NCBI GenBank assembly: GCA_002356435.2
Contig: AP018040.2
Coordinates: 2,356,001 to 2,420,000, forward strand
DNA: 64,000 nucleotides
DNA from: Petrimonas sp. IBARAKI
GTDB lineage: Bacteria; Bacteroidota; Bacteroidia; Bacteroidales; Dysgonomonadaceae
Direction of reading: 5' to 3'
Shown here: in pieces, positions 28,123-54,233 of the stretch
Numbering within the stretch: the stretch's first letter is position 1
How the letters are laid out: every line of letters begins with the position of its first letter
Translations under genes and position numbers: made by a program
The notes under the pieces: generated by a model
Databases searched by the model: none
What the model saw: only the letters and a program-made list of their open reading frames with translations
What the model was told of the DNA's origin: nothing

Positions 28123-29871
28123 TTAGTTCCAACCGGGATTTTGAGTTAATGCGGAATTAAGCGTTATATCTGTCTCGGATATCGGATAGAGATATTTCTT
28201 GTCTTCAAACTTCCTGACTTCGTCTTCTCGCCAAAGAATATGCCCTTTATCTCCTTCTGATAATCTGGATGCCTTATTGTCGATAACAAAATAGAAAATT
28301 CCCGTGGTTCCTTTTGCCGGAGCTTTGGCTACAAATGAGACATCAGGTGTGCCGTTGCCGTCAAGATCCATCGGATAGTCCATTGCGGGAATATATATTC
28401 CTTTCCATGACATTTCCAGTAAATGTCCTTTTTTCCATCTCAAAAGGTCATCATACCTGAACCCCTCATAGCACAGTTCAATTCCTCTTTCTCTTCTTAT
28501 TTCCAGTAAATACTTATCCGAAATTTCGGGGAAATAAACCTCCTGCAAATAAGTATCTGCTGCATCGGGCGCTTTCGCATTCACTCCAGCTCTTTTACGC
28601 AACAAGGCAATTGTTTGATTCCATGTAGTTTCATCGAACCGGTTAAGTTCCGCCAAGGCTTCTGCATGATTTAACAAGACCTCTGCGTACCTTATTATAC
28701 TAATGGAGTTATAAGCTTCTGATGTACCGTCTAATCTTTTATCGTCCAGGCTGAATTTTAAAATATGGTATCCGGTGTACGTATATCCGAAATTTGGTGG
28801 AGCCGCCGAGCCATCGCTCCGTTTATACCCCAATGAACGAATTGTTTGTGCCAGGCGATAATCACGATCCTTCATCTCTTCTGTAAACAAGAGCATATCG
28901 TAATTGGTTTTGTCGGTAAACCTTGAGCCATCTGTCATTAGGTATGTATTAACAAATTGCTTGTTTAACCCCCAGCGACTCCCATAAGTGGCACTGTTAA
29001 ATTTCCAGGTAATATTATGCCATCTTCTTAAAGCATTGTTGTAAATTACAGCCAACATCACTTCAGTATTTACTGGATTTTCACTGATAAAAAGTGTTCT
29101 ATAATCGGTTTCAGGGTTTCCGGTGTTGTAAATAGAATATTTTTTAGAATTTATCACCTTTGTTGATGCGTCAACTGCTTCTTCTAAAAACTTGTTCGCA
29201 GATGATTGCAAATTAAATTCGGGATGATACTTTCTGAATGTGCCTTCGAATAGACAAACTCTCGACTTGAAGGCTAGCGCAACTTGTCTTGTGATCAACG
29301 AAGACGTATTGTCTTTTGTATCCCTGATATTTTCGCAGGCAAAATTTAAGTCAGCCAGTACAGAATCCATAACCGCTGCCCTTGGATCGCGAGGCTTATA
29401 TAAATCTTTGTCGTCCGTAGCAAGTGCTTTTGAATACCACGGTACATCTCCATAGGTTTTCACTTTCTCGAAGTAAAAATGCGCTCTCCAAAATCGCGCG
29501 ATACCTTCATAATGATTCCTTGCCTCCTGAGGGATTGCATTGTTATTGAAATTCATCAAGAAATAATTGATATTCCTCAAGTCGCTCCAATTCCAAGCGG
29601 GGGCATCTCCTGAGTCATAAGAGCCTGCAATAAATTTAGGAGATTGTATCTTCGATGTGTAATCACCCATTTCATCAGATTGAACCAAAGCTAATCCATC
29701 CGGCAACCCCCTTTGATAAAACGAGTTCGTATATAATTCCAAATCTTTTTCGGTTTGAAAAAAAGTAGAGGGAACAAGTTTATCTACCGGCTCACTGTTT
29801 AGGAAATCTTCACAAGAAGACAAAGATATGATTATGAATAAAACGGTTGTGAGAATATTAAACTTTTTCAT
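28123..29871 (-). CDS. SusD/RagB family glycan-binding lipoprotein (locus A)
   Basis: A 582-residue SusD homolog with lipoprotein leader (IIISLSSCEDFLNSEP, Cys 20). The TPR-like helical core is shown by EGIARFWRAHFYFEKVKTYGDVPWY, YAEVLLNHAEALAEL and RRERGIELCYEGFRYDDLLRWKKG, and the usual C-terminus LTQNPGW. SusD proteins sit as a lid on the SusC barrel and capture glycan. The SusC gene ends 14 bp upstream, so the pair is co-transcribed. Confidence 0.95.
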   Translation of the reverse strand: MKKFNILTTVLFIIISLSSCEDFLNSEPVDKLVPSTFFQTEKDLELYTNSFYQRGLPDGLALVQSDEMGDYTSKIQSPKFIAGSYDSGDAPAWNWSDLRNINYFLMNFNNNAIPQEARNHYEGIARFWRAHFYFEKVKTYGDVPWYSKALATDDKDLYKPRDPRAAVMDSVLADLNFACENIRDTKDNTSSLITRQVALAFKSRVCLFEGTFRKYHPEFNLQSSANKFLEEAVDASTKVINSKKYSIYNTGNPETDYRTLFISENPVNTEVMLAVIYNNALRRWHNITWKFNSATYGSRWGLNKQFVNTYLMTDGSRFTDKTNYDMLLFTEEMKDRDYRLAQTIRSLGYKRSDGSAAPPNFGYTYTGYHILKFSLDDKRLDGTSEAYNSISIIRYAEVLLNHAEALAELNRFDETTWNQTIALLRKRAGVNAKAPDAADTYLQEVYFPEISDKYLLEIRRERGIELCYEGFRYDDLLRWKKGHLLEMSWKGIYIPAMDYPMDLDGNGTPDVSFVAKAPAKGTTGIFYFVIDNKASRLSEGDKGHILWREDEVRKFEDKKYLYPISETDITLNSALTQNPGWN

Positions 29872-43063: not shown

Positions 43064-46000
43064 TTATAAATCAACATTTAATCCAAACGAAAAAGTTCTT
43101 CTCAGGGGATAAGCTTTTCCCGATCCGTAAGCCCCAACAAATGCAGTTTCAGGATCAAATGTTTTATTCATTTTAGTTAGTGTAAATAAGTTTTCACCCG
43201 TGATAAAAAATCTGATTTTCTCAATTGGGAATTTTATCTTTTTTTCTACCGGGAGTGTATATCCAAATTGAAAACTCTTCAACCTGAAGTAAGCTGCATT
43301 TTGCAGAAAACGAGTCTGAGTCTGAATGTTTTTTGAATGTTCATTCGTACCTAAATAGGGTTTTGGATAATAAGCGTTCGGATTTTCCGAACTCCAGTAA
43401 TCCAGATGTTGAACGAAAACACTGCTTTGCCATACGTCTCCTGTTATTCCGTAAAACATATTACCCGACGGTGCTGCATCACGCTTGCCAACACCCTGAC
43501 AAAAAACACTTAAATCAAAATTCTTCCAGTCAAGTCCAAGATTAATACCGTAGCTAAAGCGCGGAGTTGAGTTTCCAATAATAGACAAGTCGCCATGATC
43601 GTCTAACGTATTGTTTCCGGGATTAATTTTTCCATCCTTATTTAAATCTGCGTATTCGATGTCCCCCTCACCCCACCGCGAGAAGAAATATGTTTGATCG
43701 GGGCCGGCATCAGCTTCTTCCTGGCTTTGATAGATACCCACGGTATTATATCCCCAGATCTCCCCTATCTTACGTCCTACATAATAATCAGACAGTACTC
43801 CATTGTCATTTTTATACCTGGTAATTGTTGTCTGGTTGTCTGAAAGATTAAAAGCCATGTTGTATCCCAAATCACCAATTTTATCACGCCATGCTATTTG
43901 CATTTCAAACCCTTTGGTCTGGAGGTCTGCATTATTTCTTTTTGGCGCAGATGCTCCTAAAGTTGCCGGCAAGCTTTCTGCCGGGCCAAACATATTTTTT
44001 GTCTCCCTTACGAAATAATCATAAATCAAGCTCAACCTGTTATTCAAAAAGTAAGAGTCAAATCCAATATTTGCTGTCCGTACCGTTTCCCAGGTCACAT
44101 CAGGTGATATTAATCCGGCTGCTCTAACGTATATGGGACGAGCGCCATTAATTATCCAATTGAGGTTTTTAGTTATACCCATTGTCGGCAGGTATAAATA
44201 ATTTGCAACGTCCTGGTTACCCACCTCACCCATAGAACCTCGAATCTTTAAAAAGCTGACTTTAGATGCCAGGTTATCCTCCCAAAAATCATTGTTTGAG
44301 ATTACGTAACCTGCCGAGAACGCGGGGAAAAACCCCCAGTTATATCCGGGTGCAAACCTGGAAGAACCATTGTATCTGCCAAGTACTTCGAATAAGAACG
44401 TATCGTTGAAATTGTAGTTTATCCGGCCAAAGTAACTTAAAGTGCTCCAATGGCCTTTATTACCCGAGAGGTAAATTTGACCCGTAGCTGTTTTTAAGGA
44501 CGGGACTGATTCTGTAACCAAGTCATTATTTCTACCTTCTACGGATGTATGGTAATAATATTCATTCTGCATACCGCCCATAAAAGTAATTTTATGCTTT
44601 GCGATATTTAAATCAAAATTAGAGTATAAATTGTTGGTGTTGTAAAAGTCACGGGAACAGTTTTCCAGATAAAAATTCGGAAAAGAAACCCCGCTCCTGC
44701 TTTTAGTTATACCATCCGCCAATGTACTGTAGACCGTTTTTTTATGGTTGGTCTGGTTGTTGAAATTCTGGCGTATATTGGTTTCAAAGTTAATTTTCCA
44801 GCCTTTAAGAGGTTCAAGAATAACATTGACGCTATTCAACAATTCATTTTGATTTCTTTTGTTCCTGCCCGCTTGTGATAACAACAAGTGATAACTTTCG
44901 TAATAGTTGCCGTTTGGATCTTTTTCCGGCATATTCGACCAGGTTCTGGCAATTGAATGATGAAAGTCCCCAATGTCGGAGTAGTTATGAGGTGTATCTA
45001 TATCGCGCCGTGTGTATCTGTTGTTGAATTGTAACGATAGCCAATTGCTGATTTTTGAATCAATATTCGCAACGAAATTATACCGTTGGAATTTCTCATC
45101 TCCAATTCTGTAAATTCCATCTTCATTATAGAAACCACCTGAGATGAAATAGTTAGCTTTTTGACTTCCTCCGCTTACGTTGATATCATGTTTTTGCGTA
45201 AGTGCCCACGGTTTATAATACACCTGATACCAGTTAGTGTTACCAACAGCATCGTAATAGCTGGTAAACCGATCAGGATTAGTCGGATTAACCGTGATAG
45301 CAGGATGTGTACCGGGATTTTCGTGGTTCTCCCTGGCTTTTTGTAACGTTTCGCTTGTTATGGGAGAGGTTAACCCTGCATTGTGAAAAGCTGTATCCAA
45401 TGTGTACAACCATTCATAACCTGAAGCAGGTTGAGGAAGATTAACAGGGCCATTCATTCCGAAAGTAGAATTAAGCCGGACCGATATTTTTCCTGCGGTA
45501 TCCCTTCCCCTTTTCGTTTTTATGTTGAGTACTCCAAAAGCTGCCCTGGAACCAAAAATAGCTGTCGCGGTAGCATCTTTCATGACAGCAATAGATTCAA
45601 CGTCATTCGGGTTTATATTTTCCAATTTAGACTCAACACCATCAATAATTACCAATGGATTGCTTCCCGACAAAGAACCATAGCCACGGATATTAATAGA
45701 GGGAACCGAGCCGGGCTCGCCTCCTTGATTGTTAATGGAGACATTTACGTTAGCCAAAACCCCTTGTAATGCAGATGTCATGTTAGAGGTTATTCGGTTT
45801 TCCAGTTCCTCTCCCCTAACCTGGGCAATGGCACCTGTGAGGGTTTCCTTTTTCTGTACCCCATAGCCCACAACCACCACTTCATCGAGCGTTTCCGCAT
45901 CCTCCTGTAACACGATATTGAGGGTTGTTCTTCCGTTAACAGCAACACTTTGTGAAGCCATACCCACGTAAGATATTTCCAAAGTAGCGTTGGAAGGGAC

Positions 46001-46207
46001 GTTTGAAAGAATAAAAGTGCCATCGATATCCGTAACTGTGCCTACGGATGTTCCTTTCACCTGCACCGTTACGCCTATCAACGGTTCTCCCGAGGTATCG
46101 GTCACCGTGCCTCTTACCGTTATGTTTTGGGCAGGCAGACATAAGGAAAATAACCACATAAAGAGAAAAAATATCCCTTTTTTTACACTTGAAAACACTT
46201 GTTTCAT
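43064..46207 (-). CDS. SusC/RagA family TonB-linked transporter (locus C)
   Basis: A 1047-residue transporter with signal peptide, regulatory-like domain (VTDTSGEPLIGVTVQVKGTS), plug motif VVVGYGVQKKETLTGAIAQV and barrel ending FSFGLNVDL. It is more distant from the loci A and B proteins than those are from each other, and its upstream region lacks their shared motif. Confidence 0.97.
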   Translation of the reverse strand: MKQVFSSVKKGIFFLFMWLFSLCLPAQNITVRGTVTDTSGEPLIGVTVQVKGTSVGTVTDIDGTFILSNVPSNATLEISYVGMASQSVAVNGRTTLNIVLQEDAETLDEVVVVGYGVQKKETLTGAIAQVRGEELENRITSNMTSALQGVLANVNVSINNQGGEPGSVPSINIRGYGSLSGSNPLVIIDGVESKLENINPNDVESIAVMKDATATAIFGSRAAFGVLNIKTKRGRDTAGKISVRLNSTFGMNGPVNLPQPASGYEWLYTLDTAFHNAGLTSPITSETLQKARENHENPGTHPAITVNPTNPDRFTSYYDAVGNTNWYQVYYKPWALTQKHDINVSGGSQKANYFISGGFYNEDGIYRIGDEKFQRYNFVANIDSKISNWLSLQFNNRYTRRDIDTPHNYSDIGDFHHSIARTWSNMPEKDPNGNYYESYHLLLSQAGRNKRNQNELLNSVNVILEPLKGWKINFETNIRQNFNNQTNHKKTVYSTLADGITKSRSGVSFPNFYLENCSRDFYNTNNLYSNFDLNIAKHKITFMGGMQNEYYYHTSVEGRNNDLVTESVPSLKTATGQIYLSGNKGHWSTLSYFGRINYNFNDTFLFEVLGRYNGSSRFAPGYNWGFFPAFSAGYVISNNDFWEDNLASKVSFLKIRGSMGEVGNQDVANYLYLPTMGITKNLNWIINGARPIYVRAAGLISPDVTWETVRTANIGFDSYFLNNRLSLIYDYFVRETKNMFGPAESLPATLGASAPKRNNADLQTKGFEMQIAWRDKIGDLGYNMAFNLSDNQTTITRYKNDNGVLSDYYVGRKIGEIWGYNTVGIYQSQEEADAGPDQTYFFSRWGEGDIEYADLNKDGKINPGNNTLDDHGDLSIIGNSTPRFSYGINLGLDWKNFDLSVFCQGVGKRDAAPSGNMFYGITGDVWQSSVFVQHLDYWSSENPNAYYPKPYLGTNEHSKNIQTQTRFLQNAAYFRLKSFQFGYTLPVEKKIKFPIEKIRFFITGENLFTLTKMNKTFDPETAFVGAYGSGKAYPLRRTFSFGLNVDL

Positions 46208-46976
46208 TCTTGAATTTTGTTTTAAATTAATTATTGATTATTAGATATTATGTATCCCGTAAAGTCTTTATACGTCATGGTAAATTACATACTGCAGGCC
46301 GATAACTTCATTTCTACAGGCAGATCAACAGCATGCGAAACCTGAACTAAACGGGTATTTCCGGCGAAAGCCGGCTGAAAGAGAAGAGAGTTTGCAGATA
46401 ACTGAAACCCGGTGCGGTAACGGGCAATCGTAGTATGCGCGGGGGTATAAAAAAAGAGGCGCGGACGATTGTCAATATCCCTCACAACAGGCTCCGCAAG
46501 GGCCTTTCCAAGAGAATATAACAATGTCCACGCCCTTATTTCTAAGGGCGCTTCCATTCTTTGATCTCTTGGTTTGAATTTTGCGGATTCGTCGTGAAGA
46601 TCAAAAAAGCGCTATGTAATTTGTACCGTATTTAACAATACAAAAATACTCATTCTTTTTAATTTCTATGTTTTCATAGGCATTTTGTTTACGTTCTAGA
46701 TATTTTTTGTAACTTTACTTTTATCATTTCAAAGATGGATTATCCCTTTGAAATCGACTTTCTGTGTAGATAGTCATCGTTCAATAATATGCAAATGAAT
46801 AAAAAAACATCGTAACTCTGTGTTATATTGAAATGTTTTGCACAAGCGTAGTCAAAAAACTTACAAGAGTAAAATGTATTGTACAAGGAGGTATACAAGT
46901 TGTATAACTTCTTATAAAATTATCTTCATCTTCGATTTTCTATTATCTTTGTTATAAAATTCAATTTGAGTCAGCT
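46208..46976. promoter_or_regulatory. Divergent intergenic region between locus C and the AT-rich island
   Basis: 769 bases. It holds a GNRA-type hairpin CCGGC-GAAA-GCCGG (46361-46374), a minus-strand -7 candidate TATTTTTG (46648-46641) that would give susC a long leader of about 430 bases, a 9-bp inverted repeat ATTTCAAAG/CTTTGAAAT (46726-46754), and two palindromes near the XRE gene, TTGTACAA (46879-46886) and TATACAAGTTGTATA (46892-46906). A -7 element TATCTTTG (46944-46951) should drive the XRE gene. An open frame at 46285-46557 was not accepted as a gene. Confidence 0.45.
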
Positions 46977-47384
46977 ATGAATAATACGGAAAACAATAAA
47001 AAAAGTGTTCATCAAGGTAAAAATGCGAAGTTATTCAGGGAAACCAAGGGCATTAAACAAGAAGTAATTGCTATTGAATTGAATATTACCCAACAAGCTG
47101 TATCCCAGTTGGAGAAGCGTCAGGAACTTGATGATGAAACAATAGAAGCGTATGCCAGAATTGTGGGGATAGACGAATATTTTATCCGGAATATGCCTGA
47201 TAATTCTCTACCGGAAGTCACTTCTAACTTCTTTGACCAAAGTTCTCAAATATTAAATTTTAACCCTTTGGATAAGTTAGTGGAACTTTATTCGGAAAAG
47301 GATGAGTTATATGAACGAATGCTTTTAGAGAAGGAAAAAGTAAATAATTACCTTGAAAAAGTCTTGGACAAATTATCTAAATAA
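46977..47384 (+). CDS. XRE-family helix-turn-helix regulator
   Basis: A 135-residue DNA-binding protein. Residues 16-70 form a Cro/C1-type HTH: NAKLFRETKGIKQEVIAIEL, then NITQQAVSQLEKRQ as the recognition helix region. The rest is a predicted helical, charged tail (ELYSEKDELYERMLLEKEKV), probably a coiled coil for dimerisation. It is the first gene of the AT-rich island and lies 241 bp before the methyltransferase, with palindromes in its own upstream region, an arrangement like that of controller proteins of restriction-modification systems. That role is inferred. Confidence 0.85.
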   Translation: MNNTENNKKSVHQGKNAKLFRETKGIKQEVIAIELNITQQAVSQLEKRQELDDETIEAYARIVGIDEYFIRNMPDNSLPEVTSNFFDQSSQILNFNPLDKLVELYSEKDELYERMLLEKEKVNNYLEKVLDKLSK

Positions 47385-47625
47385 ATGGCATCCAAACGAA
47401 TGCTTCTCACAAAGGCAGAAAAATTGAGAGGATGCATTGGTTTTGGGAAATAATCCAAATAAAATTAAGGAATATACTGGTATTGAATTTATTAGCGGTC
47501 ACTATCATGTTTGGACATTGAAGGTCAAATTTATCTTTTGGCTAAGTTTTTGCAATTTGTTTGAACAGCAAATGACCGACTAAATTTTTTAACTTATCTT
47601 TGAGCAAAATTGTATCCTGTCATCT
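47385..47625 (+). promoter_or_regulatory. Intergenic region with promoter of the methyltransferase operon
   Basis: TATCTTTG at 47595-47602 matches the -7 consensus 24 bp before the methyltransferase ATG. TTTGC/GCAAA half-sites (about 47546-47573) lie just upstream and could bind a regulator. No gene is seen in the rest. Confidence 0.5.
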
Positions 47626-48966
47626 ATGACGAATTTATATACGGATAACAGTATCCATTTTCTGATCAATGAACTTGAGAAAATAGATCAACGAATATTA
47701 GATGGAGATACTCATCAAAGCGATGAAAACATCCATCGAATATTTGCTTATCCTGCAATGATGGTACCCAAAACACAAAAAAGGATAGTTGAAATAATAA
47801 CAAAGTACCTCCCAGAGAATGCTAAAATGATAGATCCCTTTATGGGATCTGCAACGTCTTTACTTTCATGTATGGAGAATGGTTTACACGTGTATGGACA
47901 AGATATAAATCCATTATCTGTATTAATAAGTAAAGTAAAAACAGGACCATTAGATTATGAATTATTTAAGGAGCGATTAGACGTATTATCAGTAGAAATA
48001 GAGAAAGATAAGTCTCCTACGGTAGATGTTTTTTTTGATAAAATTGATAAGTGGTTTGAAAAACAAGTACAAATAGATTTATCAAAAATAAGAAGATCAA
48101 TAATTTTGGAGCCAGACATTCATGTTCGTCGTTTCTTTTGGGTTGTTATGGCTGAGGTTATCAGAACATGTAGTAATGATCGAACTTCAACTTTTAAACT
48201 TCATCGAAGACCTGATGAAGAAATCAAATCAAGAAAAATTTCTACCATTTCAGAATTTAAAAAATTAGCAGAGCGAAGCATCTGGGATGTGAAAAAATTC
48301 AAGGAAAAGTTACTCGAGAATTCTTTATTAAATGACAGAACTTATTTTAAGCATGCTGAAGTTAAATGGGGAAATACAATGTCTAAAATAGACGCATTGG
48401 AAAAATTCTCCTTATTAGTATCTTCCCCTCCTTATGGAGATAACCATACAACGGTCACTTATGGACAACATTCTTTTTTACAACTGCACTGGATAAATAG
48501 AAAAGACATTAGTGATAATGACATAGATTTGGATTACTTGCGTACTACACAGGAGATTGACCGTGAAAGTTTGGGAGGACATTCATGTAAAGTAAGTGAA
48601 AGTCACAGGCAAGGGGTCTTAAAAAAGACCCCTACGCTAGAAAAGTTGATATCCAATATTTCTGAAAATGAATTAGTAAGGTATCATAAAGTTGTTTCTT
48701 TCATAGATGATTTTGACAAATCACTTGATGTGATTATTAATAGTATGGAAAAGGATGCATTCTATGTATGGACTATAGGTAATAGAAGTGTGAATAAAAG
48801 GGAAATAGCGAATGATTTGATTTTGGTAGATTTAATGCAATATAGAGGTATACCGTTGATTCATCAAGCTGAAAGAGTGATTCACAATAAGAGAATGCCA
48901 AGTCGTAATAAGACAACAAAAACAATGGATAAAGAGAAAATTCTTATTTTCCATAAGTATATATAA
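47626..48966 (+). CDS. DNA methyltransferase (N4-cytosine/N6-adenine type, SPPY motif)
   Basis: A 446-residue SAM-dependent DNA methyltransferase. Motif I appears as DPFMGSATS (residues 70-78) and the catalytic motif IV as SPPYGDNH (267-274), with about 190 residues between them that may carry target recognition; that order is the alpha-type arrangement. SPPY favours N4-methylcytosine but N6-adenine cannot be excluded. No endonuclease gene is recognisable beside it. It is 1 bp before the dual-ATPase gene and clearly in one operon with it. Its codon use is very AT-rich compared with the flanking glycan genes, pointing to acquisition by transfer. Confidence 0.85.
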   Translation: MTNLYTDNSIHFLINELEKIDQRILDGDTHQSDENIHRIFAYPAMMVPKTQKRIVEIITKYLPENAKMIDPFMGSATSLLSCMENGLHVYGQDINPLSVLISKVKTGPLDYELFKERLDVLSVEIEKDKSPTVDVFFDKIDKWFEKQVQIDLSKIRRSIILEPDIHVRRFFWVVMAEVIRTCSNDRTSTFKLHRRPDEEIKSRKISTISEFKKLAERSIWDVKKFKEKLLENSLLNDRTYFKHAEVKWGNTMSKIDALEKFSLLVSSPPYGDNHTTVTYGQHSFLQLHWINRKDISDNDIDLDYLRTTQEIDRESLGGHSCKVSESHRQGVLKKTPTLEKLISNISENELVRYHKVVSFIDDFDKSLDVIINSMEKDAFYVWTIGNRSVNKREIANDLILVDLMQYRGIPLIHQAERVIHNKRMPSRNKTTKTMDKEKILIFHKYI

Positions 48967-48967
48967 A

Positions 48968-51430
48968 ATGAAAGATAAGATTCGGTTTGATATAAATCCA
49001 CACGTTATAAAACAATTAGGTGCAGAATTAGTCTCAGATGAAATAACTGCCCTAATGGAAATTGTGAAAAACTCTTATGATGCTGATGCCAGTTATGTTA
49101 GTATTGACATCAATACCGTTGGAGTATATGATGGAGAACCGATAAAATATAAGAACAAGTCAGGCTATATCGTCGTAGAAGATGATGGTTTTGGCATGGA
49201 TGAAGATACGATTATAAAATCTTGGCTCACAATATCATATTCGAATAAACGTGCGATAAATGGTATGAAACCAAAAACGCCTAAAGGAAGAACTCCTCTT
49301 GGTGATAAAGGATTAGGACGTCTAAGTACTCAACGTTTAGCAAATATTTGCGAAATATTTACATCAAAAGAAGATACTAAAGAGAGAATTCATATCGCTT
49401 TTGACTGGAAAGACTTTGAGGCTTACGATGCATTAGGAGAAGTACCGGTTTCAGTGTCTTTTTTGAAAAAAAAGAATTCAGGAACAACTCTTATTCTATC
49501 TGACTTAAATAACCCCAAAATCTGGCAAGGAGAGAAATTGGAGAAATTAAAAGGTGAACTTTCTCAAATGGTTTCCCCTTATAAAGCTAATAGACCTTTT
49601 GAAGTCTATATTCAGGTAAACGGACAAAAAATTGATCTAATTAAGGAGAATGAAGATTTACGAGAAATTGCACTGGCAAAATATGGATTTGAGTTTGATG
49701 GAAATCAACTATCTATAACTGGGCGTATAAAACCTGAAAAACTAATAGGCAATAAGAAAGATGATTATTTTGCTTTTATTGCTCCTGATAGTGGAAAAAA
49801 ATTTAATAATTATTTTTTCAGTAAATTTAATTCACAAGATATTAAGCGAGGAAAAGACAACTATTTATTGGAATTCCACAGAGTTTTTGATATAAATTTT
49901 GGAGAGATAGCTGGTTTGGAATTTGATGAAGGTCAGGTTGTAAGTCCTGGAGCCTTTTCAGGTGAGATTAACGACTTCTCTTATGATAATTGGATATCTA
50001 ATGATGACAGAATAAGAAGCACATTTGACTCATTAGCAAATTATAAGGCATTTGCACAAAGTCAGGCTGGAATAAAACTATATAGGAATGGATTCGCAGT
50101 TAAACCGTTTGGGATCGATGGCCAAGACTGGTTGAAACTCGGAGATGCACAAACATCTGCATCTTCATATTACACCCTTCGTCCTAAAAATGTGATAGGA
50201 TATGTAGCCATTAGTGAAGATAAAAATAATCATTTGAAAGAAAAAACAGATAGGGAGGGGCTTATATCTAATGCGTATTCTAGAAACTTTATGTCTATAA
50301 TGTATTTCGTAAGAGATAGTTGTAATTCTTTTATTGATCAAGTTAGACGTTCCTATAATAATTTTTTGACTGAGTATAAAATTGAAAACACTAAAGTCAA
50401 AACAGTTTCTCAGGCATTTAATGAAATAAAAGATACTTCTTTAAAAGCATCAAATATCAAAGACGACTTTTATCGGATCAAAACAGAAATAAAAGAAACG
50501 CGAACCAATACCGATAAATATGCGAAGTCAGTGGAGAGTTCTTCCCTCTTTATGACAGACGAACAAAAAGAGGCTGCAAGTTTACTTCAAAAAATTAATG
50601 CTGAATTATTGAATGCTGAGAATCTGCTTGAACTCATACAACCTATAATTAATAAAGCTGAAAATCTTCCTGATGTAATTAATATCCTTGAACCGAAAAT
50701 ATCAGTTCTTGAGGAGCAATTAGAGAACTTTTCTGAATTAGCATCTTTAGGTTTAACCGCAGAAGCAGTAAGTCATGAGTTTGCTACTATATCTGACAAC
50801 TTAGCAGAAAGATCAGTTTTGTTTTCCCAAAAGCTTGGCGGGGGAAATTACTCTGAATCAGATATATATATACTTATGGAGTATATCAATTCAACAGTTA
50901 ATGGATTGAAAATACAATTAAAGCATCTAGATCCAACTCTAAAATATAATAAAGAGCAACGAGGAGTTATTAATTTAGAAAAATTTTTCACGATTGACGA
51001 GAGTGAATATTATGATACCCGATTACAAAAGAATGGGATTAGCTTTGAAATAGAGATCATTCATAATTTTAGTATATATACAAATAAAGGAAAGATAACT
51101 CAAGTATTTGACAATATAATAAATAATTCAGAATATTGGTTAAAAGAACGACTAAAAAGTGATTCCGATTTCTCTCCTATTTTAACCATTAAAATTGATA
51201 AACCTTGGGTGTATTTATATGATAATGGTTATGGTATTGCACCATCCATCAAAGATCTTATTTTTCAACCATTCTTCACTTCAAAACCTAATGGTAGAGG
51301 TTTGGGATTATTTATTGTGCAACAATTGCTAGATTCTATTGGATGTACAATATCTATGGAACCTAAACGCAATAATTACGATCATTACTATATATTTTCC
51401 TTGAATCTCTCAAATATTATTAGTGAATAG
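48968..51430 (+). CDS. Dual GHKL ATPase: MORC-like N-terminus plus histidine-kinase-like C-terminus
   Basis: An 820-residue protein with two separate GHKL-type ATP sites. The first (about 1-210) has ALMEIVKNSYDADA (E31, N35, D38), EDDGFGMD (73-78) and GDKGLGRLS (112-120), as in HSP90/MutL/MORC-type ATPases, followed by an S5-like middle part. A long helical linker (about 470-590) leads to LGLTAEAVSHEFATISDNL with His 603 placed like a phospho-acceptor, then N-box FDNIINN (714-720), G1 DNGYGI (752-757), FFTSKP and G2 GRGLGL (776-781) of a histidine kinase. The first domain recalls the prokaryotic paraMORC proteins linked to restriction-modification; the kinase half is not usual there. It lies between a methyltransferase and a receiver-like gene with gaps of 1 and 2 bp. 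Confidence 0.85.
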   Translation: MKDKIRFDINPHVIKQLGAELVSDEITALMEIVKNSYDADASYVSIDINTVGVYDGEPIKYKNKSGYIVVEDDGFGMDEDTIIKSWLTISYSNKRAINGMKPKTPKGRTPLGDKGLGRLSTQRLANICEIFTSKEDTKERIHIAFDWKDFEAYDALGEVPVSVSFLKKKNSGTTLILSDLNNPKIWQGEKLEKLKGELSQMVSPYKANRPFEVYIQVNGQKIDLIKENEDLREIALAKYGFEFDGNQLSITGRIKPEKLIGNKKDDYFAFIAPDSGKKFNNYFFSKFNSQDIKRGKDNYLLEFHRVFDINFGEIAGLEFDEGQVVSPGAFSGEINDFSYDNWISNDDRIRSTFDSLANYKAFAQSQAGIKLYRNGFAVKPFGIDGQDWLKLGDAQTSASSYYTLRPKNVIGYVAISEDKNNHLKEKTDREGLISNAYSRNFMSIMYFVRDSCNSFIDQVRRSYNNFLTEYKIENTKVKTVSQAFNEIKDTSLKASNIKDDFYRIKTEIKETRTNTDKYAKSVESSSLFMTDEQKEAASLLQKINAELLNAENLLELIQPIINKAENLPDVINILEPKISVLEEQLENFSELASLGLTAEAVSHEFATISDNLAERSVLFSQKLGGGNYSESDIYILMEYINSTVNGLKIQLKHLDPTLKYNKEQRGVINLEKFFTIDESEYYDTRLQKNGISFEIEIIHNFSIYTNKGKITQVFDNIINNSEYWLKERLKSDSDFSPILTIKIDKPWVYLYDNGYGIAPSIKDLIFQPFFTSKPNGRGLGLFIVQQLLDSIGCTISMEPKRNNYDHYYIFSLNLSNIISE

Positions 51431-51432
51431 TT

Positions 51433-53175
51433 ATGCTACAGGTAGATGATCAGATTGTTGAGGCTGTTAAATCTATAAAGGCCTTACTAGAAGCCGGTAA
51501 TGTAAAGAAAATAATATATATTGATGATCGATTCGATTATCAATATCATAAAGAAATATTTATAGGTTTACTCAGGACTTTAAGAAATCGATTAAATCAT
51601 CTACCAGGAAGAAAGCCTAAATATAATTTTGTGCAAAGTTGGCAAATGGCGGAACCTGCTTTTTCCCAATTTGCTGAGCAAAAATGGAATAATGCAACGA
51701 TCCCTGAGAGAGAAAAATATTTGACGACCTTATATACTAAATTAAATGAGCCTGATTATTTGGCGGTAAATATTTTAGAAGACAGTATTGGAGATTTATT
51801 TCTAACTTTTACGCCTACTCAATGGAGTGAGCAAAAGGAAATTCTTTTTGGTGAGTTGCAAGATTATGAAAAATATTTATGTCTATTCGATTATGAATTA
51901 AATGACGGACGTAAAGGAGGACAATTAGTACAATCACTACTAAATAGTCCAAATGCTCCACAGGTATATTGTGGTATTTATTCTCATATCTTAGAACCGT
52001 ATGAAGAACATGAAAAAAAAGAAGAATGGGCAAAATCTTTAGGGGTATCTAATTTTTATCCAATCTCAAAGAAACGACTCCAGAATAAGCCAAGCATTGC
52101 TGGATTTTGTAATGGATTAAGGAACGTGCTTCTAGTGAAAGATATTGAGGAGTTAAAGACTAAATCATTAGAACTAATCAATGCTTCTTTTGATAAAGTC
52201 AAGGATAGAATAGATAAGATACATCCAGATACATTTAATTATGTTGTGCAGAGGAGTTCTCTTGGAGAAGGAATATGGGAAATAGAAACCTTTTTAAGAT
52301 TATCGAACGTATTGATGGATCAAGAAACTAAAAGGAGCCTTTTGCCAAAAGAAATAAGAGAACAATATAATGGTTCTATAAATCATATTCGAAGTATTGA
52401 TTTGATAGAAACTATAAATCCGGACCGTTTTTATCAAGAGCAAACAAAAATAATAGAAGAGGAAGAAAAATACTACTCGTCCGAAATAATAAACAGATTA
52501 CATTATCCTTTGAGGAATGGAGACATTTTACGAATAAAAGAAAAAGAATATATACTTCTCTGTCAACCATGTAATTTATCTGTTCGGAATAACGGGAAAA
52601 GAGCAAATGGTATTGATAATGCTTTCTTATTAGAAATACATTCTAAAGACAAATTCATTAATAGTGATATAGCAAAAATAGATACTTCACGAGAAGGCGA
52701 GATAAAATCTTTTAATTTAAACAGTAATCAAATTAGATATGTAAAATTTTCACAATTTACATATGTTCAACTGCTATTATTAGATTTAGTTATGTATCAA
52801 GATGATGGAATAGCAAAAATCGATTTGAATATTTCAGAAGAAAGTTTGCCGCATTCTATTCATTTGCCTCTTGTGAAAAGATATAAAGAATTAAGAAAAG
52901 AGTATAGAAAATATGCAGAAATACTTACTTCATATTCAACAATCATAAATGGTAGAAACGATAACCATAAACGAACTTTAGATGCCTATATTAATAAGCC
53001 TAAATATCTTAGTGATTTTAAAATCAATGGTGCAGAATGTTATCATGCAGAACATGAAATATTTGAATTTCCTATAAAACGCATAAGACACTATAAATCA
53101 ACATATTCAACGGAGTTATTAAAGAAATTCATGGATTATCTATCCCGTACAGGATTTGACAAAGACTTTATATAA
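51433..53175 (+). CDS. Protein with receiver-like N-terminal domain and novel C-terminal region
   Basis: A 580-residue protein I do not recognise as a whole. The first 220 residues look like a response-regulator receiver with a large insertion: acidic pair in IIYIDDRFD (D31, D32), candidate phospho-acceptor Asp 153 in YLCLFDYELNDGRKGG, Ser 184 in VYCGIYSH and Lys 213 in FYPISKKRL, in the right order for strands 1, 3, 4 and 5. Roughly 70-90 extra residues separate strand 1 from strand 3. The C-terminal 360 residues contain ILLCQPCNLSVRNNGKR and no nuclease motif I can name. It begins 2 bp after the dual-ATPase gene, so the two products probably interact. It may be the output component of the system. 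Confidence 0.6.
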   Translation: MLQVDDQIVEAVKSIKALLEAGNVKKIIYIDDRFDYQYHKEIFIGLLRTLRNRLNHLPGRKPKYNFVQSWQMAEPAFSQFAEQKWNNATIPEREKYLTTLYTKLNEPDYLAVNILEDSIGDLFLTFTPTQWSEQKEILFGELQDYEKYLCLFDYELNDGRKGGQLVQSLLNSPNAPQVYCGIYSHILEPYEEHEKKEEWAKSLGVSNFYPISKKRLQNKPSIAGFCNGLRNVLLVKDIEELKTKSLELINASFDKVKDRIDKIHPDTFNYVVQRSSLGEGIWEIETFLRLSNVLMDQETKRSLLPKEIREQYNGSINHIRSIDLIETINPDRFYQEQTKIIEEEEKYYSSEIINRLHYPLRNGDILRIKEKEYILLCQPCNLSVRNNGKRANGIDNAFLLEIHSKDKFINSDIAKIDTSREGEIKSFNLNSNQIRYVKFSQFTYVQLLLLDLVMYQDDGIAKIDLNISEESLPHSIHLPLVKRYKELRKEYRKYAEILTSYSTIINGRNDNHKRTLDAYINKPKYLSDFKINGAECYHAEHEIFEFPIKRIRHYKSTYSTELLKKFMDYLSRTGFDKDFI

Positions 53176-53959
53176 ATAAACTATAATAGTTGTAAGATAA
53201 TCATTCGGTAAGGTCTATATAGAATTGTAAGTATATTTGGTTTTTACAAATTCTGGCATTATCCTTAAAATTGTGTAATTTTATGGGGAAGCATACAGGA
53301 TAAGGCATGGCTAACCGTTGGCAGTAAGCTTGAAAAAGACGCAACACTATATACACAATGCTCTTAAAATAAATTAATTTCAAATTTGCTGACAAAATAA
53401 ATCAAAATTGTACCAATGAAAATTAAAGTAAGCACCCGAGCAACTACCTCTTGATTATTCCGGAGCATACGCACCCACGGATTTGATCTGATTATTCATT
53501 CCGACAGTTACTGGATCTCCAGTAAATTGTTAGCGTATTATTAGAGTGCCTATAGGCATTTATTAGAGCATTATTAGATTTTGACTGGTGATTCGCTAGT
53601 TTCCTTCGTTTTTCCAGTAATGCGGCAAGAGCTTCTTCAGGTTTTCATCATTCCCCGTGTAAACAGGAATTAAAAATACAGTGAAAATGGGAAAATCCTG
53701 TACAGTTTTTTGGGAACATTACCTACAGTATTTTCGGGAACAGGAATACAGTAAATTCTGAGCAAAAATAAACAGTCCTCAAGGTACCTTAAAAGAAGAA
53801 GACACCATAAGTATATACAAATGACTCGATTTTAAGTTTTGCTTAGGAATTTGAAAAACCACACAGGGTAACATAGCATTTACGACTACAAAGATAAAAA
53901 TTTCAATTCAGATTTTTCATATTTTATGTACCAAAGCTAAAAATCCCAAATAAATTACA
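53176..53959. other. Non-coding stretch with short direct repeats and a palindrome
   Basis: About 780 bases with no gene. GTAAGCACCCGAGCAACT at about 53429 vaguely resembles an IS66-type end. TTATTAGA occurs at 53538, 53560 and 53571 (22 and 11 bp apart) around the palindrome TGCCTATAGGCA (53547-53558). Four TACAGT-headed units follow at 53677-53769. On the minus strand, 53580-53650 reads NDENLKKLLPHYWKNEGN, possibly a gene fossil of unknown type. Confidence 0.4.
53677..53769. repeat. Four iteron-like direct repeats, 23-24 bp period
   Basis: TACAGT begins at 53677, 53701, 53724 and 53747. The first three units continue with similar bases ending GGGAA (approximate consensus TACAGTnnnTTnGGGAA); the fourth is looser. 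A single similar unit lies at 11552. Confidence 0.6.
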
Positions 53960-54008: not shown

Positions 54009-54233
54009 ATGGCCAATTTGGAATCGGAGAGAAGTAATAAGTGGGATCAATTCTTTGTTGAACTGCAATCCCAAGGACGTTATGCCTTTACGTTTGAAGA
54101 ATTACGTAGCCGTTTCAAGTCATCTGAAAAGACACTGCTACAGGGCTTGTACAGATATAAAACCAAAAAACAGATAGCTTGCAAATTCCGTTTTATCCTG
54201 CCCCCCCATTCCGGAATACTGACCCCTCTATAA
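54009..54233 (+). pseudogene. Truncated AbiEi-family (type IV) antitoxin gene
   Basis: The 74-codon frame begins MANLESERSNKWDQFFVELQ and continues GRYAFTFEELRSRF and LLQGLYRYKTKKQI, matching the N-terminal winged-helix domain of AbiEi-like antitoxins of Bacteroidetes. After KKQI the expected sequence is lost by deletion or frameshift: a later ILPPHSGILTPL matches the normal continuation, then a stop follows. A complete protein would be about 190 residues or more. No AbiEii nucleotidyltransferase toxin gene remains downstream. The operator upstream is intact. Confidence 0.65.

Follow-up and report, generated by a model that had tools for sequence, protein, structure and literature searches.

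A methyltransferase, a MORC/MutL-like histidine kinase and a receiver-like protein conserved as one unit: a candidate restriction-like defence module

What does a DNA methyltransferase (MTase) do in a tight operon with a signalling kinase and a receiver-like protein, in which no helicase or nuclease partner is recognised? We addressed this question for a locus of Petrimonas sp. IBARAKI (Bacteroidota; Dysgonomonadaceae) in a stretch of 64,000 nucleotides (the window; GenBank assembly GCA_002356435.2, contig AP018040.2, positions 2,356,001 to 2,420,000 of the forward strand), to which the positions below refer. Three genes on the plus strand, with gaps of 1 and 2 bp, encode a 446-residue MTase (47626..48966), an 820-residue protein predicted from profile and structure comparison to be a MORC/MutL-like ATPase fused to a HEF_HK-like histidine kinase (48968..51430), and a 580-residue protein that a model and an alignment mark as response-regulator-like (51433..53175); coordinates, lengths and gaps agree with a first-pass annotation made from the letters of this DNA. 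We suggest, with a probability of about 0.5, that this trio is a mobile, restriction-like defence module with an effector gated by a phosphorelay. We favour this reading because gene order is conserved, the three proteins diverge together, their catalytic residues are intact, the third protein has a receiver fold and half of the second is MORC-like; because a nuclease gene found beside relatives of the MTase is missing beside the trios and short receivers are accompanied by a separate gene; and because the site is a cargo hotspot in a genome of the same species, AIPR, BrxL and phage-head genes occur as neighbours, and the guanine-plus-cytosine (GC) content of the trio is low.

Conservation of the three genes and their active sites

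Besides the window, 17 bacterial loci were found, all through searches with the receiver protein. Two true relatives were present among 101 genomes of the family (own genome included), a third match, in G049, resembling a short ORF6N protein by eye and judged spurious. A sample of the phylum gave 3 of 395 genomes (own included), and further relatives came from two plasmids and from 13 loci in GTDB contigs, one of them already known; L035, being the same contig as L030, was left out of the count. The trio is spread over Bacteroidota and Proteobacteria, with hosts that include Psychroserpens, Hymenobacter, Chitinophagaceae, Saprospiraceae, Sphingomonas, Mesorhizobium, Variovorax and a Rhizobium etli plasmid.

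MTase, kinase and receiver genes stood in the same order and on the same strand in 16 of the 17 other loci, and the contig of the seventeenth (L045) begins just before the kinase gene. A Maribacter copy (L041) is decayed, with its receiver in two frames, a kinase open reading frame (ORF) that starts late and a short MTase ORF; 15 of the 17 are complete, two on plasmids, and genes of L043 and L044 that seemed to be missing by ORF picking were present by tblastn. When the longest ORF is taken, intergenic gaps in the 15 complete copies range from -142 to +57 bp. Because the order is kept so widely, the objection raised with the first-pass annotation, that the genes might lie apart in most genomes, falls away for these loci, which were found through the receiver gene. 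Leaving out L041 and L045, here and in the residue counts below, gave 16 complete trios with the window included; across them the distances of the three proteins correlate with r 0.960–0.969 (p 0.0001; Mantel test, 9999 permutations, host phylogeny not taken out). Conservation of the order beyond chance bears out the earlier claim of one functional unit. In the proteobacterial trios L043 (3243–3482) and L044 (3147–3398), a small protein that looks ribbon-helix-helix-like by eye overlaps the start of the MTase gene.

The MTase carries DPFMGS as motif I and SPPYGDN as motif IV, with the catalytic SPPY at residues 267–270 (48424..48435, from alignment columns), and matches D12/N6_N4 MTase profiles as well as MTase_II of PADLOC, as expected for the SPPY-type enzyme first annotated. 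Residues D70, P71, G74 and D93 are kept together with SPPY in all 16 trios. Judged by these motifs, the protein is an SPPY amino-MTase acting on N4 of cytosine or N6 of adenine; the SPPY motif favours N4-cytosine. Its family would predict m4C at a short recognition site, perhaps resembling the CCNGG type of MvaI and BcnI. As to the C5-cytosine class, the MTase had no match to PF00145, and the SPPY amino type was found in 16 of 16 trios.

Two GHKL domains had been proposed for the second protein, and Pfam located both: HATPase_c_3 at residues 27–151 (49046..49420; E 4.7e-17) and HATPase_c at residues 709–801 (51092..51370; E 1.4e-12). The two families were matched in 13 of 13 members, and the protein measures 818–912 residues across complete trios. 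Within the N-terminal domain, E31, N35, D38, D72, G74, G76, G112, G115, G117 and R118 are present in 16 of 16 trios and most GHKL motif residues are invariant, position 113 being D or E; within the C-terminal one, the same holds for N716, N720, D752, G756, G778 and G780, and G754 is kept in 15 of 16. A structure model (mean predicted local distance difference test score, pLDDT, 76.7) resembled Hsp90, MutL, MORC2 and SMCHD1 in its N-terminal half, in line with the paraMORC-like ATPase first suggested, and the C-terminal half matched histidine-kinase profiles. The candidate phospho-acceptor His603 (50774..50776) lies in an H-box, AEAVSHEF, around which the model has low confidence (block means 45–59), and is a histidine in 16 of 16 trios. 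We predict from these features a MORC/MutL-type ATPase joined to a histidine kinase that is phosphorylated on His603; Pfam recognised no nuclease domain in it.

The third protein had been called receiver-like, a description that needed proof because no profile supported it: searches at E up to 1 gave no match in Pfam, PADLOC or PHROGs and a single NCBIfam match with E 0.28. An AlphaFold model (mean pLDDT 79.0) supports the description, aligning to CheY3 with Z 10.8 and a root-mean-square deviation of 2.8 over 119 residues (model range 17–234; VIA); Foldseek alone gave no match with E below 0.001. The predicted N-terminal receiver domain (residues 20–238, 51490..52146) contains D31 and K213 in 16 of 16 trios, D32 in 15 of 16 and S or T at position 184 (S184 in the window) in all 16, and its predicted phospho-acceptor, Asp153, is in column for 13 of 16 and two residues later in the remaining three.

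The C-terminal domain (residues 347–580, 52471..53172), the predicted effector, has N354, D364, Q378, C380, R385, R390, D451, R483, R550, R572 and D578 invariant in 16 of 16. It includes a GDI...ILLCQPCN motif (residues 363–381, 52519..52575) that has, by hhalign, a counterpart at the corresponding place in Response_reg_2 proteins; a QxCD pattern proved unspecific as a search tool (5 of 252 control ORFs) and was dropped. No known fold was found for this domain in the Protein Data Bank by sequence or with Foldseek in that databank and viral models (E <0.001), and the VIA structure list, which covers mainly residues 17–238, mainly tested the receiver part. Single receivers gave weak Pfam matches to 10 families, each family in 1 of 12 members (best E 0.0014), which we attribute to chance. 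The receiver-like protein of a Hymenobacter monticola plasmid (L008, 8995–10791) is annotated as 'cytochrome P450', which is likely a misannotation.

The missing nuclease and the mobile setting

MTase relatives outside trios were 24–35% identical at the 14 loci opened (6 of 27 plasmid records, from the upper part of the list, and the best 8 of 82 genomes). A restriction enzyme of the MvaI/BcnI family stands beside 10 of these 14 (4 by annotation, 6 more by tblastn) yet beside none of the 17 trios, which upholds the idea that the kinase/receiver pair takes the place of an expected nuclease. Matches to the restriction enzyme of 26 residues in L037 (E 0.003) and of 85 residues in the window (28963–29211, E 0.008) were set aside as chance. 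A search for an enzyme hidden elsewhere in the host genome gave no match to PF15515 or PF13391; PF15515 had no match in the control genomes of the first search and matched 3 of 3 positive genomes that were added.

No fourth conserved gene emerged when 235 ORFs neighbouring the 17 trios and 8 loci of the related Response_reg_2 kind were compared: any one family was near 2 of the 17 trios at most. The families near trios were HNH-type genes (2), Vsr (1), recombinase-like (2) and ribbon-helix-helix-like genes (2), and one gene common to two Hymenobacter loci; Pfam confirmed HNH_2 in L030, L055 and L056 and Vsr in L038. AIPR and BrxL lie near two other trios.

The boundaries of the inserted DNA were given by related genomes. 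G041, a genome of the same genus that lacks homologues of receiver and kinase, shares its DNA with the window as far as 47383 and then differs; the shared part includes an XRE gene (46977–47384) that had been counted as a regulator of the system. This gene was rejected as a fourth component and belongs to the insertion site itself, since G041 has it but lacks the trio and since another XRE gene occupies the position in G049 (Pfam) and G046 (by eye). The cargo interval, 47385..53407, runs from the end of homology with G041 to a dispersed 250-bp repeat (53408–53657) that touches its right edge and has copies elsewhere in G049; this repeat and 53658–53772 next to it both recur elsewhere in same-genus genomes. 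G049, of the same species, matches the left flank as far as 46667 and the right flank from 54300 onwards; the roughly 30 kb in between encode another XRE protein, a caspase, SIR2 and HerA proteins, a second SIR2 and an N6_N4-MTase/ResIII pair. We interpret the site as a hotspot for defence genes, in which the trio forms a single cargo unit of about 6 kb.

The composition of the trio also sets it apart, as the first-pass annotation had noticed: its GC content is 31.3%, against 41.8% in the left flank (30–46.2 kb), 54.9% in the right flank (54.3–64 kb) and 42.5% in the whole window, and it is lower than the flanks in 13 of 14 loci compared (14 of the 17 trios used). A broken toxin-antitoxin gene described next to the island was not confirmed, the ORF taken as the candidate (54009–54230) having no Pfam match, and the position between glycan loci is a reading of neighbouring translations by eye. 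Around the start of a SusC-like gene (43064–46207, by eye), window positions 45843–46690 have several copies in G049 and G042 at 65–89% identity.

Related genes occur on viral DNA as well. A complete trio lies about 1 kb behind the gene for the terminase large subunit on viral contig IMGVR_UViG_3300027800_000326 (L135). Two other contigs of one metagenome, L136 and L134, end or start inside the kinase gene, the former copy behind a terminase gene and the latter in front of portal, protease and major head protein genes. Together with the cargo of G049, these copies beside phage head genes support the mobile, defence-type setting that was first proposed. More distantly, L163 has an MTase–kinase–receiver row after tail-type genes, and in L137 the MTase comes last.

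A search of viral contigs with the receiver only found nothing, and a scan with the kinase found 66 loci. Leaving out two truncated kinases, 64 loci had a kinase of 600 residues or more, with a receiver-like DD start directly downstream in 44 and an MTase motif nearby in 47, as counted by simple patterns without a control. In 58 of the 64 there was room for a next gene, and these fall into 44 clusters: 28 in the short and long receiver classes compared here and 16 in the middle class. A separate gene directly followed the receiver in 8 of 9 clusters with receivers below 300 residues, in 14 of 16 with 300–429 residues and in 5 of 19 with 430 residues or more (short versus long, Fisher p 0.0036, with cut-offs set after a first look at the data). 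Among the genes that follow short receivers, seven have by eye a CxYC stretch as in HNH proteins, of which an automated HNH pattern flagged only one, and one has a metallo-beta-lactamase motif. These counts suggest that the C-terminal domain of a long receiver stands in for a separate effector.

Several viral arrangements recur. L171, L150, L158, L177 and others show a prophage-type row of MTase, dual-GHKL kinase, a receiver-only protein of 209–228 residues and a gene, HNH-like by eye, of 184–222 residues; L156 has a metallo-beta-lactamase-like gene where L171-type loci have the HNH-like one. In L172, L181, L199 and others, receivers of 340–410 residues are mostly followed by an uncharacterised gene of 215–263 residues, often near NPPY-type MTases, and this gene may be another effector.

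A phosphorelay-gated defence reading and its alternatives

In the defence reading, the MTase would, as its family suggests, mark self DNA, and the MORC/MutL-type clamp would sense foreign or unmarked DNA or a DNA state induced by phage. The kinase would then autophosphorylate on the conserved His603, and the phosphate could move to Asp153 of the receiver protein, the fold and residues of which come from the model and alignment. Phosphorylation would in turn switch on the C-terminal domain of the receiver protein, acting as an effector in the place of a nuclease gene.

Several observations weigh against this reading. Profile and structure searches gave no nuclease or toxin signature in the C-terminal domain, so that the term effector rests on modular replacement; a match to AbiTi (E 0.015, in 1 of 12 members) is chance-like. 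The replacement rule is not strict either, because 5 of 19 long and 14 of 16 mid-length receivers have a following gene. Moreover, 3 of the 17 trios have an HNH-type gene (L030; a fragment near L036) or Vsr (L038) no more than 5 kb away, against 6 of the 8 Response_reg_2 loci. The co-divergence figure is uncorrected for host phylogeny, and 50,697 named phage records had no match to the receiver or the MTase.

The same genes might instead form an epigenetic or regulatory two-component system, in which kinase and receiver time the action of the MTase or control other host genes without any attack on DNA. Intact His/Asp phosphorelay residues, the MTase as a constant partner and the lack of any nuclease match for the trio in the profile libraries would all suit such a system, and the authors who described a related pair in 2021 speculated (PMC8011034) on signalling that controls restriction-modification (R-M) systems. 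We nevertheless consider this unlikely: no helix-turn-helix or other DNA-binding output was recognised in the receiver protein with the libraries searched, the trio travels as cargo, both within a defence hotspot and on viral contigs, and a nuclease-like gene accompanies its relatives that have short receivers. Another alternative is conventional restriction, in which the C-terminal domain would act as a nuclease specific for the site of the MTase and the kinase part as a mere clamp or ATPase motor. The MTase indeed belongs to the family of MvaI/BcnI R-M systems, and paraMORCs are linked to nucleases (PMC2292703; the GHKL-nuclease Shedu). This version is less probable still, since no PD-(D/E)xK, HNH or other nuclease profile matched and the conservation of a full kinase core and of the receiver residues would serve no purpose in a plain restriction enzyme.

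Two further explanations were considered. As a phage-derived means of self-protection, the MTase would shield phage DNA against restriction by the host and the kinase/receiver pair would tune the choice between lysis and lysogeny, bacterial copies being leftovers. The complete viral copy behind a terminase gene and the split copies beside terminase and portal genes fit this picture; that 15 of 17 bacterial copies are complete, with two on plasmids, and that the phage records above gave no match make it very improbable. We give least credence to a DNA-repair or mismatch module akin to MutL with very-short-patch repair, mending lesions at the methylated site. Its attractions are the MutL-like fold and the presence of Vsr beside 4 of 8 Response_reg_2 loci and near one trio; yet Vsr lies near only 1 of 17 trios, and the patchy, hotspot-swapped distribution is unlike that of a housekeeping repair module.

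The defence reading may, more tentatively, extend beyond the window branch to a broad, undescribed immune class of bacteria and phages, a possibility that we hold to be somewhat short of even. In such a class a varying MTase would mark self, a MORC/MutL clamp-kinase would detect non-self DNA, and restriction would be gated by a phosphorelay, with the receiver carrying its own effector (the window branch, with a new fold) or working with a separate HNH or metallo-beta-lactamase protein. This class would amount to a two-component system that reads DNA instead of a small ligand. In the usual view, restriction enzymes attack unmarked DNA immediately; if a kinase and a receiver replace the nuclease, attack would become a regulated decision with a threshold. 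Bacteria would then also provide a case of a MORC-type clamp with an output that can be measured, phosphotransfer, and hence a direct test of sensing by MORC ATPases. Because the receiver of the window branch escapes the models of Pfam, NCBIfam, PADLOC and PHROGs that were applied, surveys based on such models will tend to overlook it.

Comparison with known systems

The nearest described relative is a two-component-like pair, HEF_HK (PF19191) and Response_reg_2 (PF19192), described beside C5 DNA methylases by Bellieny-Rabelo et al. (2021; PMC8011034). Eight distinct Response_reg_2 loci above the PF19192 cut-off, from two genome samples, were opened for comparison, and the order MTase, dual-GHKL kinase, receiver was the same as in the window trio in 8 of 8, the receiver of L067 running into the contig end. 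Their MTases are of C5 type (motifs by eye), whereas the window branch has the SPPY amino type, and their kinases measure 967–1002 residues against 818–912. Kinases of the two kinds are homologous over nearly their full length (hhalign probability 100, E 2.8e-47); PF19191 did not match the window kinase at E up to 1 and matched 3 of 13 members weakly (best E 0.064). In L065 (1358–3166) and L066 (9419–11203), an ATPase of 594–602 residues (AAA type by eye) lies directly behind the receiver and is followed by Vsr.

The receivers of the two kinds are barely related. They share the DD strand and a GDIF...QxCDxxxR motif at matching places, and those of the window branch have the paired acidic residues, phospho-Asp (13 of 16 in register), Ser/Thr and Lys of the published kind. 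Over the whole length the match was weak (probability 17%, E 0.0015), with 44 columns on GDIF...YILLxQxCDxxxR, and a thinner alignment (12 versus 4 receivers, hhalign) gave a probability of 2%. The N-terminal pair scored 23.9 against a decoy maximum of 18.9, none of 200 shuffled decoys reaching the true score; the C-terminal pair scored 35.2, a value that 2 of 200 decoys equalled or exceeded, one decoy reaching 135.7, which makes this a soft test. PF19192 matched none of 12 window-branch receivers at E up to 1 and nothing in the host genome. Because the published Pfam models miss the window branch, the window trio is a sister branch of the HEF_HK/Response_reg_2 kind and not a member by the published definition. 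The claim that no named system has this content thus stands in part: no description of this branch was found in the literature searched, and a HEF_HK/Response_reg_2 pair preceded by a DNA methylase gene had been described in 2021. An already described system with the same components was likewise only half encountered, as a sister with the same gene order but another MTase class. In the literature searched, the two domain names occur only in the 2021 paper and in one on biosynthetic gene clusters; 'HATPase' and 'REC' appear in the legend of a figure of predicted defence systems in a 2026 paper (PMC13092281).

A check against PADLOC (2.0.0, 2023) found no system with all components matched: MTase_II matched the MTase, REase_II matched the kinase in part, and nothing matched the receiver. 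The paraMORC R-M operons described by Iyer et al. 2008 (PMC2292703, in excerpt) share with the trio an N-terminal GHKL domain with a MutL/MORC-like fold and a link to a DNA methylase, and the kinase has the GHKL and S5-like module with intact ATP motifs; in those operons the ATPase occurs mainly with superfamily II helicases and nucleases, neither of which was recognised in the trio, and the word 'receiver' is absent from the text of that paper. From MvaI/BcnI type II R-M systems, whose MTases are its relatives at 24–35% identity, the trio differs in having a kinase and a receiver where the restriction enzyme stands. BbrUII/HgiDII restriction enzymes (NF050001) have an N-terminal GHKL ATPase in common with the trio kinase, which matched this model over residues 7–234 only (93 bits against a cut-off of 550) and adds a kinase core. 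Similarly, the GHKL Shedu protein VcSduA (PMC12137116, in excerpt) is a defence protein with an N-terminal GHKL ATPase, as in the trio, whose own protein has no recognised nuclease. Finally, Detocs, as presented in an excerpt of PMC11249213, is a three-gene defence system named for two-component signalling, as predicted for the trio. Its best-described version uses a PNP effector that destroys ATP, a domain for which the trio gave no Pfam match (PF01048); the trio itself combines a MORC-like sensor with an MTase.

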